DNA from: an uncultured bacterium
GTDB taxonomy: Bacteria > Muiribacteriota > Ozemobacteria > Ozemobacterales > Ozemobacteraceae
DNA length: 64,000 bases
Assembly (NCBI GenBank): GCA_900317935.1
Contig: ONIU01000001.1
Coordinates: forward strand, 1-64,000
Direction of reading: 5' to 3'
A program made the translations under genes and the position numbers. This document shows, piece after piece, positions 24,933 through 30,469 of the stretch. The number at the start of each line of letters is the position of its first letter. Positions within the stretch are counted from its first letter, which is position 1. Below the pieces are notes generated by a model. That model ran no database searches and had not been told where the DNA came from. It worked only from the letters and a program-made list of their open reading frames with translations.

Positions 24933-26639
24933 CTATTTTGGATAGCATTTTGATATTTTTAGATAAAATCCGTCTTCTAACTTTTGTTCCAATATATTTT
25001 CTGTTATAAAACCATCAGGCATTTCTTCCCCAATACATGGTTTATTGGTTTCTTCAGCCATATATTGAATAGCCAAAAAATATTGACAGTTTCTTTGCTT
25101 ACAATAATCAATTAAGTTATCTTTAAATTTGTTTAAAACTTTAAAGTTTATAGAATTATATCCTAAGGGAGTAAAAAGAACAGATTTTTTATATACCAAT
25201 ATATAATTACTTTTATTTTTTTGATTATTTTCCAAATAATCATTTATGAATCGAAACTCTCGACAAATAGGCATTTGTTTTATGTCATAATTATTCCCAA
25301 AATCTTGAGCATAAATTAAAAAAAGGAAAGCGATTCCTAAAATATAGTATCTTTTGTGAATTTTGTATTTAATATTTAAACAGATTAAAGACTCTATTGC
25401 CAGATAAACTATAATAGGTAAAAATATTAAAGCATGTCTATTTGCCAAGACTTTAGTAATATCACCTAAACAAAATGAAAATTTAACTAAAATATGAATT
25501 AAATAAAAACTAGCAACAAATAAAGGGAAAGCTTTAATATTTTTGAATCTGTATTTTTTTATTTTCAAAATATTAAAAGTAAAGCCTATTAATGCCATAA
25601 TACTTATAATAGGAATTACTCCGTATTCATTTATACCTGAAGTAAAAAAGACTATTGCTTGTTTACTGTTTTCTATTAGATATTTAATAGAGAATGGATT
25701 GGTTAAATCCATCCCTTCAGATTTATCTACGAAATTTGTTATGGCTTTTAACCAGGCTATGGGTAATAATAATAGAGGGAAAAGCCATAATTTATAAGTA
25801 AATTCAGAGTATTTTGTTTTGGGTAAATAATAAAAAATAAAAGGTAATGCTATAAATACAATTAAAGATGATTCGTATCGGCTTTGTCCTAATATTGGTA
25901 GAAATAGAAGTATAGCTTCAGTATTGACAATATTTGGATTTTTAAGAAATTTCCAACAAAGTAAAAATAAAACTAAAGAACATAATAAATTAAGTATGTC
26001 AAAGCCAGCAGAATTAACATACCAGACAAATAAGGGATGTAAATAAAGGCAAATCAAGCCTAATATTCCATAAAATCTGCCATATTTTAAGCTAACTAAT
26101 AGATAAAAGAGAAACAGAGTTAGTATTCCGCATAAATAGTTTAATATAAAAGGGTTTCTATAGCTATAGCCAATTAAACAATGTATTATACTAGTTAAAA
26201 AAGGGAACAATACTGGTCTTTTATCAATTATTTTATTAAGAACTTCTTTGTTACCATCTAAATGATTTATAGATGACATATTTGTATAACATTCTTTGTT
26301 TTCGTATAATGATTGAGAAGTAGATAATAAAAGCATTTCATCTGAGAATATCTTAAAATTTGGTTTAGAGTTATAAAAAGACAAAAGAATTAAAATAGAA
26401 GATATAACAAAAGCAACTTTATGTTTCTTTAAAAAGGTAATAAAAGAAAATTTTTCTGTGATGGCAACTTCAAGAATAGTTAATGCAAATAATAGAATAT
26501 TAATACTAAGGCAATAATAAATAGTGTTTACATATAAGTAATGTTTGTCAATAAAACTAATTTGAAAAAAACCAAGATATATAGCGGTGATTCCTGTTAT
26601 TATAAATAGTATTATATTTCTAAATTTCAGAAGATTCAT
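24933..26639 (-). CDS. PMT/ArnT-like polytopic glycosyltransferase, paralog 2
   Basis: 568 residues, about twelve helices and a soluble C-terminal tail. The acidic pair of the first periplasmic loop is D100-E101 in FKIFSDEMLLLSTSQSLYE. SAGFDILNLLCSL and LGQSRYESS match paralog 3 closely, so these two are more alike than either is to paralog 1. Expected to use a polyprenyl-phosphate sugar in the periplasm. It stands on the opposite strand from the LtaS-like pair and about 100 bases past the stop of mgtE, with which it might be co-transcribed. Acceptor unknown. Confidence 0.75.
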   Translation of the reverse strand: MNLLKFRNIILFIITGITAIYLGFFQISFIDKHYLYVNTIYYCLSINILLFALTILEVAITEKFSFITFLKKHKVAFVISSILILLSFYNSKPNFKIFSDEMLLLSTSQSLYENKECYTNMSSINHLDGNKEVLNKIIDKRPVLFPFLTSIIHCLIGYSYRNPFILNYLCGILTLFLFYLLVSLKYGRFYGILGLICLYLHPLFVWYVNSAGFDILNLLCSLVLFLLCWKFLKNPNIVNTEAILLFLPILGQSRYESSLIVFIALPFIFYYLPKTKYSEFTYKLWLFPLLLLPIAWLKAITNFVDKSEGMDLTNPFSIKYLIENSKQAIVFFTSGINEYGVIPIISIMALIGFTFNILKIKKYRFKNIKAFPLFVASFYLIHILVKFSFCLGDITKVLANRHALIFLPIIVYLAIESLICLNIKYKIHKRYYILGIAFLFLIYAQDFGNNYDIKQMPICREFRFINDYLENNQKNKSNYILVYKKSVLFTPLGYNSINFKVLNKFKDNLIDYCKQRNCQYFLAIQYMAEETNKPCIGEEMPDGFITENILEQKLEDGFYLKISKCYPK

Positions 26640-26739: not shown

Positions 26740-28602
26740 TTACTTTAATACAACAAATATAAGCAAACTAGACACTGCATAATATATTAACAAGGCAAAA
26801 ATATCATTACATGACGTAACAAATGGGCCAGAGGCTACAGCTGGGTCTATCTTAAATTTGTTGAATACTATGGGAACAAGAGCTCCATAAGTTGTTGAGA
26901 AGCTCATTGTGCAAAGCATTGCTATTCCAACAGTCATTGAGAGATAAATAGCCTTCATTGCTGGTGGATTTGGTGAAGTAACAATCAGATATTGTGCCCA
27001 AAGGCCAATAACCAAACCGCAGACGGCACCCATAAGAGCACCAGCAGCTATTTCTTTCCAAACCTTTTTAAACACATCTTTAAAAGTAATCTCATTATTT
27101 AGAGACAATGCTCGTATAGCAAGAGTAGAAGCTTGAACACCAGCATTTCCACCCATTCCACAAACTACGGGAACGAAGAAAACCAACACGGCTATGCTTT
27201 CAAAGGAGGCCATAAAGTATTTTAATATTGCACTAGTTACAAAACCAGTACAAAGAGTTATCAATAACCAGGGTAATCTTGATTTACAGGTCTTAAATGG
27301 CGAATCTGTTTCTAATTCTTCATCAGAAGTACCAGCCATCTTCATGATATCTTCGTTGGCTTCTTCTTCCATAACGTCCATGATATCGTCAATGGTGATA
27401 ACCCCTAGAATCTGCTGTTTATCATTAACAACAGGCATAGCTATGTAGTCGTATTTTGAAATCAATGCGGCAACTTCTTCCTGTGGTGTTGCTGCATTAA
27501 CTGATACGATATCTTTTTCCATAACATCAGAAACTAAGGCATTCGGATTAGATGAAATTAAATCTCTGATGGAAATGATACCTTTTAAGCGGTCTTCATT
27601 ATCAAGAACATACATGTAGTAGATGTTTTCTACGTCTGCTGCTACAAGTCTAATATGAGCTATTGCATTAGCAATAGTAAAATCATCATAAATAGAGATA
27701 TATTCGGTGGTCATAATACCACCGGCAGTGAATTCGTCGTGTTCCAAAAGTTTTCTTACATCGCTGGCCTCGTCAAGGTCCATATGATCTAAGATTTCTT
27801 TTGCACGGTCCTGGTCGATATCCTGAAGCAAGTCTGCTGCTTCGTCTGGATCCATTTCTTCAATGATGTCAGAAGCTGTTTCTGTATCCAAATCTTCAAT
27901 AATTTGAATCTGGGTTTCAGAATCAGCTTCTGCGATTGTTTCTGCTGCAACCTCTTCATCAAGATTTTCAATAACAGAAACTCTGTCTTCATCATCTAAG
28001 TCTTCAAGGATATCTGCCAAGTCGGCAGGGTGTAAATTCTGTAAATTATCGGATGTTTCATCTGTTGTAATGGTTTCAAATTCGTCATCAAAACCGATGA
28101 TTTTATCCCATTCTACAATTTCAGGTTGTAAATCCCCTGCAAACCAGGATGCGACTGTTTTTGAAACGTTATATAAACCAGATCTTTTTAATAACGATTT
28201 AAAGCTGATATCAACACCACTAACCTGTATTATTTTATTCTTTTCACAAATAAGGGCTAAATCATTGATTGTTATGTTTTTTACATTTACAGTATCAATA
28301 ACTGTTTTATCCCATAATTCAGTAGCTGTAGGTTTTTTATCATCTTTAACGTATGCAGGTAAATCACTTAAAGCATCTTTTAATTCAAAATCCTTTGGAG
28401 TGAATGTTTTAAAATTATGTAAAGAAGCCAGTTTATTTGTTGAAGAGTCAAAATCATAAACTATAGCTTGTTCAAAGTAAAGTTTGTGATCTCTTAGGGT
28501 TAAAACAAAGTCCGTTATTTTCCCTGATTGTCTGCCTGCTTCACTGTAAACTGGGGCGCCAATTAAATCTGTTAAAAAATAAATGGTCTGTGTCATAATC
28601 AT
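26740..28602 (-). CDS. mgtE: MgtE magnesium transporter with PRC-barrel-like N-domain
   Basis: Mg2+-gated Mg2+ channel of the inner membrane. About 620 residues. Residues 1-170 resemble a PRC-barrel (TIYFLTDLIGAPVYSEAGRQ), 185-290 are the Asp/Glu-rich MgtE N-domain superhelix, 295-425 two CBS domains (TTEYISIYDDF; MEKDIVSVN), and 440-620 five helices with PVVCGMGGNAGVQASTLAIRAL, the pore signature. The acidic N-domain and CBS pair sense cytoplasmic Mg2+. The start is uncertain: GTG 28605, ATG 28602 and ATG 28596 are in frame; AGGA fits 28602 best. An out-of-frame ORF with a much stronger ribosome site overlaps the start (see the 28541-28618 entry). Confidence 0.92.
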   Translation of the reverse strand: MIMTQTIYFLTDLIGAPVYSEAGRQSGKITDFVLTLRDHKLYFEQAIVYDFDSSTNKLASLHNFKTFTPKDFELKDALSDLPAYVKDDKKPTATELWDKTVIDTVNVKNITINDLALICEKNKIIQVSGVDISFKSLLKRSGLYNVSKTVASWFAGDLQPEIVEWDKIIGFDDEFETITTDETSDNLQNLHPADLADILEDLDDEDRVSVIENLDEEVAAETIAEADSETQIQIIEDLDTETASDIIEEMDPDEAADLLQDIDQDRAKEILDHMDLDEASDVRKLLEHDEFTAGGIMTTEYISIYDDFTIANAIAHIRLVAADVENIYYMYVLDNEDRLKGIISIRDLISSNPNALVSDVMEKDIVSVNAATPQEEVAALISKYDYIAMPVVNDKQQILGVITIDDIMDVMEEEANEDIMKMAGTSDEELETDSPFKTCKSRLPWLLITLCTGFVTSAILKYFMASFESIAVLVFFVPVVCGMGGNAGVQASTLAIRALSLNNEITFKDVFKKVWKEIAAGALMGAVCGLVIGLWAQYLIVTSPNPPAMKAIYLSMTVGIAMLCTMSFSTTYGALVPIVFNKFKIDPAVASGPFVTSCNDIFALLIYYAVSSLLIFVVLK

Positions 28603-28618
28603 CACTATCCTGATTCAT
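28541..28618 (-). CDS. Possible Asp-rich leader ORF overlapping mgtE
   Basis: 25 codons from ATG 28618 to TGA 28541, overlapping the beginning of mgtE in another frame. The peptide starts MNQDSDDYDTDHLFF, with five Asp between residues 4 and 11. AAGGAGG (28630-28636) lies 11 bases upstream; it is the best ribosome site in the leader and too far from mgtE to serve it. Known leader peptides of Mg2+ transporters (MgtL type) use acidic or Pro-rich nascent chains that destabilise ribosomes at low Mg2+. By analogy, finishing this ORF would block mgtE initiation and aborting it would free it. It may also be chance; it is short and I cannot test conservation. Confidence 0.35.
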   Translation of the reverse strand: MNQDSDDYDTDHLFFNRFNWRPSLQ

Positions 28619-28711
28619 TTAATTTACGCCCTCCTTTACTTTTTTTAGGATAGCTATTCTACTATTTTGAAAGAAAAATTGCACTAAATTTTACTTAAAT
28701 TTTATTCTGTT

Positions 28712-30469
28712 TTATTCTGTTTGTTTGGGAACGCATTTAGAAACTCTCAAAATATAAGCGTTATTGATAGTTGTTTCAAATATATTATCAGAAGCCAATT
28801 CATCCGGTATTACCGAATTTTGGTAAGGAGCTTTTGTTTTTATATCAAGCATCTGAAATGCTAGATAAAATTTACTTTGGTTTTGGGAAAAGTATTCTTT
28901 AACAACATTGTTTATTTCGGGTTTATTGTAATAGTTATATCCAACTGAACTATAGCCAAAGGGAGTATATAGATTAGGTTTATAGTGAATTAATATGTAT
29001 TGGCTTTTTTCTAGAAAATTTTTTTCTAAAAAACTCTTACAAGTATTGAAGTCTAAATAGGGTAGGGAGTCTTTTATATTTATATAAGACCAACAACCTG
29101 AAAAATATGGAATAATCAGAATAATAAAAAATACATATTTGCAGTAATAAAACTTTTTGCTTATTTCAAAAAGAATGTATACAGCCATTAGGACTAAGAA
29201 AGGTAAAAAGATAATTCCAAGTCTGTTGATAACAGGATTAGTTAAGTCTATCCAACTGTAAATGAATCTAATAAGAGCATGGAGCAGATAGAAGGTAAAA
29301 ACAGAGAACCAAAAGATTTTATGCGAAAAATGTTCTTTATTGTCTATTTGTTGTTTTTCGTCATATATTGGCTTATTAAAAAAAAGTTTATATATAAACA
29401 TAATAAAACCAATTACAGCTAAATAGCTTAGAATATAATTAATACCGTAATTACTGTTTCCTGAAAAATAGAAGGATAATGCTTTCTGGGTATTTATTAA
29501 AATCCAATTGATTCCAAAGCCTCCTTCTAAGCTGTCTACTTGCCAGGATTCAGCATTGTTGGTTATTAGTCTTAACCATGCAGGAGCTACTAATAATAGA
29601 GGGAAGATTATAAAATTATAACTAAGTTTTGAATATTCTTTTCTAGGTAGGACCAAGAACACTAGTGGTAAGGCTATAAATAGAGCCAGAACGGATTCGT
29701 AACGGCTTTGAGCCAAGAGAGGAACAAAGAGTAATAAAGTTTCAGACCTTGTTGCGTCAGGATTTTTTATAAAATTATATAAACAAATAAAGAATATAAG
29801 AGAACAAAGCATATTAAATATTTCGAACCCGCCAGAATTTGTGTATCTGATAAATAATGGATATGATGCTAAAAATATTATTCCGCTGATTCCCCAGTAT
29901 TTACCCCAGAATAGTTGAATAAGATAATAAAGCAGGATTAGCGATAAAAAACCAGATAAAAAGTTTAATATGAATGCATTTTCGGGCCGGTATCCTGTTA
30001 AAAAGTGAATTATAGATATTAAATATGGGAAAAGGGCTGGTCTTTTATCTAAAACAGCAGCAAGAATTATTTTGCTTCCATTTGAGTATTCAAGCACAGA
30101 GTGAGTAGTGTAGCATTCCTGGGCTTCATATAGATTTTGGGAATCTGAAAGCAAATTAATCTCATCGGCAAAAATGCGAAATTCTGGTTTGCAAAAGTAT
30201 GTTGAAACTGTCATTAAGAGGAATGCTACTATTATAGCAATTCGATGATTATAAAGAAAGGTTTTTGCTTTGTTGATAGACTCTTTTGGGCTGTTAGAAT
30301 CAGAGGAATAAACTCTTAATACTGAGATAATCCATAAAATAATATTTATAGTCAGAAACCAAAAAACATAATCTTTGTAGAATTCCAGCATTTTTAAATT
30401 ATCAAAAGCAAAGAATCCAAACCAAAGAGCAAAGATTCCTGATATGGCAAAAAGAATCATTATGTTCAA
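28712..30469 (-). CDS. PMT/ArnT-like polytopic glycosyltransferase, paralog 3
   Basis: 585 residues, about twelve helices. Acidic pair D102-E103 in FRIFADEINLLSDSQNLYE, third-loop SGGFEIFNMLCSLIF, and LAQSRYESVLALF shared with paralog 2. C-terminal soluble tail ends RVSKCVPKQ, like KISKCYPK of paralog 2. Start is probably TTG at 30469, with AGGA 9 bases before it; ATG 30460 is an alternative. An extended -10 (TGATATAAT) lies upstream. It reads toward mgtE (110 bases apart). Putative lipid-linked-sugar transferase; substrate unknown. Confidence 0.75.
   Translation of the reverse strand: MNIMILFAISGIFALWFGFFAFDNLKMLEFYKDYVFWFLTINIILWIISVLRVYSSDSNSPKESINKAKTFLYNHRIAIIVAFLLMTVSTYFCKPEFRIFADEINLLSDSQNLYEAQECYTTHSVLEYSNGSKIILAAVLDKRPALFPYLISIIHFLTGYRPENAFILNFLSGFLSLILLYYLIQLFWGKYWGISGIIFLASYPLFIRYTNSGGFEIFNMLCSLIFFICLYNFIKNPDATRSETLLLFVPLLAQSRYESVLALFIALPLVFLVLPRKEYSKLSYNFIIFPLLLVAPAWLRLITNNAESWQVDSLEGGFGINWILINTQKALSFYFSGNSNYGINYILSYLAVIGFIMFIYKLFFNKPIYDEKQQIDNKEHFSHKIFWFSVFTFYLLHALIRFIYSWIDLTNPVINRLGIIFLPFLVLMAVYILFEISKKFYYCKYVFFIILIIPYFSGCWSYINIKDSLPYLDFNTCKSFLEKNFLEKSQYILIHYKPNLYTPFGYSSVGYNYYNKPEINNVVKEYFSQNQSKFYLAFQMLDIKTKAPYQNSVIPDELASDNIFETTINNAYILRVSKCVPKQTE

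Follow-up and report, generated by a model that had tools for sequence, protein, structure and literature searches.

The start of mgtE at this locus raises the question of whether a Mg2+ importer could be switched on by the ribosome itself, through a short acidic reading frame lying across the start of the transporter gene. Acidic peptides are known to destabilise ribosomes when Mg2+ is scarce, and for this reason a leader of this kind may allow ribosome-based switching.

The mgtE locus and its leader frame

The window, the whole stretch of 64,000 nucleotides that was analysed, is part of a 4.5 Mb metagenome-assembled genome whose relatives bear the GTDB name Candidatus Riflebacteria, a group of little-studied uncultured bacteria. 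Its mgtE gene (26740..28596, minus strand) encodes a protein of 618 aa with a PRC barrel (PF05239), an MgtE_N domain (PF03448), two CBS domains (PF00571) and the MgtE membrane domain (PF01769). The mechanical ORF opens at GTG 28605, but comparison of the sequences points to ATG 28596 as the conserved start, the only one kept in 13 of 13 orthologs; the first residues of MgtE that follow it differ among them. On either side of mgtE, also on the minus strand, are two similar PMT_2-like membrane proteins (24933-26639, for which the match is under the Pfam cut-off, and 28712-30469). None of the four genomes in the window's genus (G000-G003) yielded a CorA, which is present in most of the family, so MgtE may bear a larger share of Mg2+ uptake in this genus.

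Upstream, the Shine-Dalgarno sequence AAGGAGG (28630..28636, minus strand) precedes an ATG at 28618 that opens an ORF of 25 codons (28541..28618, minus strand; product MNQDSDDYDTDHLFFNRFNWRPSLQ). The ORF runs over the mgtE start, out of frame with the gene, and stops approximately 18 codons inside it. All of this had been put forward in the original prediction, together with a run of five Asp in eight residues, and is borne out by direct reading (the Asp-rich run is residues 4-11). Among the window's 46 ORFs of at least 150 aa, mgtE alone has such an out-of-frame ATG ORF, led by a Shine-Dalgarno sequence, at its own start. A GGAG-type Shine-Dalgarno is kept in 13 of 13 orthologs at differing distances from the leader ATG, with the spacing long in the window (11 nt from GGAGG) and shorter in relatives of other genera.

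A second motif, AGGA (28608..28611, minus strand), in leader codons 3-4, precedes the mgtE ATG by 11 nt and probably serves as the Shine-Dalgarno of mgtE itself. Its first three nucleotides (A8, G9 and G10) are kept in all 13 orthologs and A11 in 12, and the leader Gln codon is CAG in each of the 12 genomes with Gln, whereas CAA makes up 32% of the Gln codons in these mgtE genes. The mgtE ATG in turn takes its AT from leader codon 8 and its G from leader codon 9, whose second base opens mgtE codon 2. Owing to this overlap with the mgtE Shine-Dalgarno and ATG, the letters at codons 3-4 and 8-9 are partly fixed for reasons other than the peptide, and the acids at positions 4 and 9 are partly forced, a point that the original prediction did not consider.

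Conservation and distribution of the leader

The leader is present in 13 of 13 Riflebacteria genomes having a PRC-domain MgtE (60-100% MgtE protein identity), in one copy per genome, and its ATG is in every case exactly 22 nt from the mgtE ATG and in a different frame. Conservation in relatives had been named beforehand as the test on which the prediction would stand or fall, and the ORF, its frame offset and Asp4, Asp6 and Asp7 are kept at ~60% MgtE identity, with Gly4 instead of Asp4 in one ortholog (G002). Conservation is limited to codons 1-9 (28592..28618, minus strand), which follow the pattern M-x-(Q/K)-(D/G)-x-D-D-(H/Y)-(D/E) in all 13 orthologs; Asp11 and the tail are not kept, the leader varies from 25 to 44 codons in length and the position of its stop is not conserved. 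In the window the core is MNQDSDDYD; elsewhere it is MNQDTDDHE, MNQDSDDHE, MKQDSDDHD, MHQDVDDHD, MNQDIDDHE, MTQDTDDHE, MNKDSDDYD and, once, MNQGSDDYD. Asp6, Asp7 and an acid at position 9 (Asp or Glu) occur in 13 of 13 orthologs and Asp4 in 12, and Pro is absent from codons 1-9 in every one. What the orthologs hold in common is the leader together with its Shine-Dalgarno, frame, spacing and peptide, with no riboswitch evident, and we consider it very probable that this ORF is genuine and under selection.

It should be noted that mgtE itself has an in-frame TGA or a frame break at L009 (G019) and at L013/L035 (G021), with the leader intact; either sequencing error or decay may be the cause. Several other Riflebacteria of the family (L014-L019) have PRC-MgtE_N-CBS-like proteins that match only approximately the first two thirds of MgtE, with no PF01769 match in several of the genomes. 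These may be soluble relatives of MgtE that do not have the membrane domain, and they occur without the leader.

The leader is specific to Riflebacteria and its conservation is confined to one family. Across 84,980 species the pattern was found at 16 sites, of which 12 are Riflebacteria mgtE leaders and four are chance matches outside the Riflebacteria with a downstream frame that is not mgtE. Use of the same leader ahead of other genes was rejected on the single copy per genome and on the position of these four sites away from mgtE starts. Among the 39 Riflebacteria genomes searched, the other 26 gave no match to the pattern and none of the 39 matched the reversed-control pattern; a search of plasmids for the leader was likewise without a match. 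At 52 other mgtE starts, drawn mostly from other phyla and including one paralog each from G000 and G003, some short ORF led by a Shine-Dalgarno was nearby in 12, and an acidic leader of this type, scored as at least three acids in residues 2-10, in none. Further mgtE paralogs and other loci and phyla were surveyed by eye, a set that took in some loci that are not clean mgtE starts, and a motif-like leader was not seen; one weak case (L039, MPIFCGKEAEN, with a Shine-Dalgarno of 4 nt) is unlike the motif. For CorA, no comparable acidic leader was found in the eight loci, out of 18, that passed the GMN filter. Titles and abstracts of the open-licence literature on mgtE leaders, intrinsic ribosome destabilization, and Riflebacteria and magnesium contain no description of such an mgtE leader.

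Proposed control of mgtE and alternative readings

A hexamer with a 5-of-6 match to TATAAT occurs 39-51 nt before the leader ATG in 13 of 13 orthologs (mostly TATCAT, TATTAT or TAGAAT), and in the window this is TAGAAT at 28656..28661 (minus strand), a probable -10 element of the mgtE promoter from which a 5′ UTR of roughly 30 nt is predicted. This evidence is taken as suggestive, because such hexamers are common in AT-rich DNA and the consensus scan of the window did not flag this one. No Rfam model matched in the window at gathering score, no intrinsic terminator was found, and a conserved hairpin of the MgtQ type was rejected, with RNAalifold returning zero pairs for 12 aligned leaders and single-sequence folds disagreeing between species. 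The original prediction had control acting by overlap with the mgtE start and not by Rho or a riboswitch; that neither riboswitch, terminator nor conserved RNA fold was found is in agreement with control by overlap.

The link to Mg2+ draws on what has been learned of acidic nascent chains. Acidic residues adjacent or one apart at the N-terminus lead to pausing or dissociation of bacterial ribosomes, and low Mg2+ favours dissociation on MgtL, the leader that controls the Mg2+ transporter gene mgtA (PMC11282234, PMC11552253). The destabilising context, shown for MgtL and relieved by EttA, comprises such acids within the first 10 aa (PMC11282234). Translation of mgtB requires, and is promoted by, the acids of MgtQ (PMC8092293), and a similar abortion occurs on yeast Spt8, whose N-terminus is MDEVDD (PMC9718836). 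Translation of the Riflebacteria leader, its abortion, and the Mg2+ dependence and its sign are all plausible by analogy with the work on MgtL and MgtQ.

Our preferred reading, to which we give a probability of roughly 60%, is that the leader acts in cis to place mgtE translation under Mg2+ control through overlap and ribosome destabilization. The leader would be translated from its strong Shine-Dalgarno and, when Mg2+ is ample, its ribosomes would read across the mgtE AUG and continue through at least 17 codons of mgtE, occluding the weak internal AGGA and the mgtE start. When Mg2+ is scarce, the chain carrying Asp4, Asp6, Asp7 and Asp/Glu9 would destabilise the ribosome (IRD) at approximately codons 6-8; this abortion would clear the mgtE start, the level of MgtE would rise and Mg2+ would be restored. 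Two versions fit, relief of occlusion alone or abortion followed by reinitiation, and under these two the loss of the leader ATG should shift mgtE output in opposite directions. In the second version, loss of the peptidyl-tRNA while codon 7 or 8 occupies the P site would leave the ribosome 4 or 1 nt away from the mgtE AUG, on which it could then reinitiate; with other sequences, reinitiation after drop-off has been observed (PMC8934632). That the same ribosome drops its peptidyl-tRNA at codons 6-8, is held by AGGA and reinitiates on the mgtE AUG is a tentative proposal that we lean against; if true, the failing ribosome would be both the Mg2+ sensor and the maker of the transporter, and no RNA switch, Rho or protein regulator would be needed. 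Reinitiation after normal termination was judged unlikely because the leader stops at least 50 nt downstream of the mgtE ATG.

The core's lack of proline and its small complement of acids (four in the motif) are real reasons to doubt destabilization as the mechanism. Neither EE nor DE had an effect by itself in one E. coli YFP context, where a clear EttA effect required at least DPEE (PMC11282234). The window's genome contains bL31 and EttA-like fragments, the latter as sub-cut-off pieces on separate contigs only.

The evidence for the peptide itself comes from codons 6-7 (GAY GAY), where the four first and second positions have undergone no change and the two third positions have undergone five, all between T and C, next to nine changes in the adjoining codon 5. 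Neutral simulation on the MgtE tree, at a rate of ~2.5 changes per site taken as the mean of the codon 6-7 third positions and with the L013 branch shortened by hand for its broken MgtE frame, gives four unchanged sites with a probability of about 1e-6, a value that is an order of magnitude only, as the tree is small and the rate matching rough. Change at codons 6-7 is therefore confined to wobble positions in a manner that argues for selection on the leader peptide. A real leader could nonetheless respond to something other than Mg2+, either as a constitutive occluding uORF that keeps mgtE low or as a sensor of amino-acid charging or of EttA activity and ATP. EttA is linked to ATP/ADP. It acts on early acidic residues (PMC11282234), and the overlap with a strong upstream Shine-Dalgarno would be enough for occlusion; however, a constitutive occluder needs no set peptide, yet Asp-Asp is held at codons 6-7 beside a free codon 5, and the gene under control encodes a Mg2+ transporter. 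Of the alternatives this one survives best, and we regard it as unlikely.

The same codons weigh on the suggestion that the leader is a by-product of non-coding constraint, such as the mgtE Shine-Dalgarno, spacer and ATG or a DNA or RNA site, with a peptide that does nothing. Part of the motif is indeed forced where AGGA and the ATG overlap codons 3-4 and 8-9, but codons 6-7, which change only at wobble positions, are outside both, the upstream ATG with its strong Shine-Dalgarno is kept at constant spacing to the mgtE ATG, and ordinary mgtE starts have nothing similar; we therefore hold this to be improbable. Least probable of all is a programmed +1 frameshift from the leader ATG into an N-terminally extended MgtE. 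The overlapping frames are not separated by a stop and would be joined by a shift at any point in codons 2-8, but a frameshift would not require the mgtE ATG, which all 13 orthologs keep unchanged. That ATG is also preceded by AGGA, the initial residues of MgtE vary, and inspection of GAY GAY YAT GA revealed no known +1 slippery sequence.

Comparison with known Mg2+ leaders

The preferred reading, Mg2+ control through overlap and ribosome destabilization, can be placed beside four known systems. The M-box (ykoK) riboswitch also confers Mg2+ control on MgtE-type transporter genes (PMC12810186), but it is an aptamer RNA, and here no Rfam covariance model matches upstream of mgtE and the predicted 5′ UTR leaves little room for one. 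CorL of corA is also a leader ORF, and its translation varies inversely with expression of the Mg2+ transporter (PMC11552253); unlike the Riflebacteria leader, it is based on Rho and RNA structure, has few acidic or proline residues, and is described as being in the 5′ upstream region and not over the start.

The other two systems are MgtL and MgtQ. MgtL of mgtA in E. coli and Salmonella is likewise a short leader ORF with early acidic residues before a Mg2+ importer gene, and translation of its EPDP aborts at low Mg2+, raising transporter expression (PMC11282234, PMC11552253). The Riflebacteria leader has in common with it a short, Shine-Dalgarno-led ORF ahead of the transporter gene and conserved early acids. 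MgtL, however, is upstream of mgtA in a structured 5′ region with Rho-dependent transcription termination and has prolines interleaved with its acids, whereas the Riflebacteria leader has no Pro in its core, no consensus fold and a short predicted 5′ UTR (~30 nt), and overlaps the start codon. MgtQ, the mgtB leader of the Salmonella mgtCBRU operon, is an ORF of 8 aa with a strong AGGAGG Shine-Dalgarno that acts at the level of translation, and its acidic residues are required for translation of the downstream Mg2+ transporter (PMC8092293). It is located in the operon's intergenic region, where alternative stem-loops hide the mgtB RBS, while for the Riflebacteria leader no conserved fold is predicted, nor an RBS-hiding stem-loop exclusive with a leader-freed one, and the two starts are nested 22 nt apart. 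The leader offers a compact and easily cloned test of whether a downstream start can be under the direct control of abortion on an acidic chain, and of the fate of the ribosome after abortion. Should the preferred reading be true, sensing by ribosome destabilization would reach from enterobacterial mgtA and mgtB to MgtE in a distant phylum, and would there be reduced to a minimum of nine codons and two nested starts.
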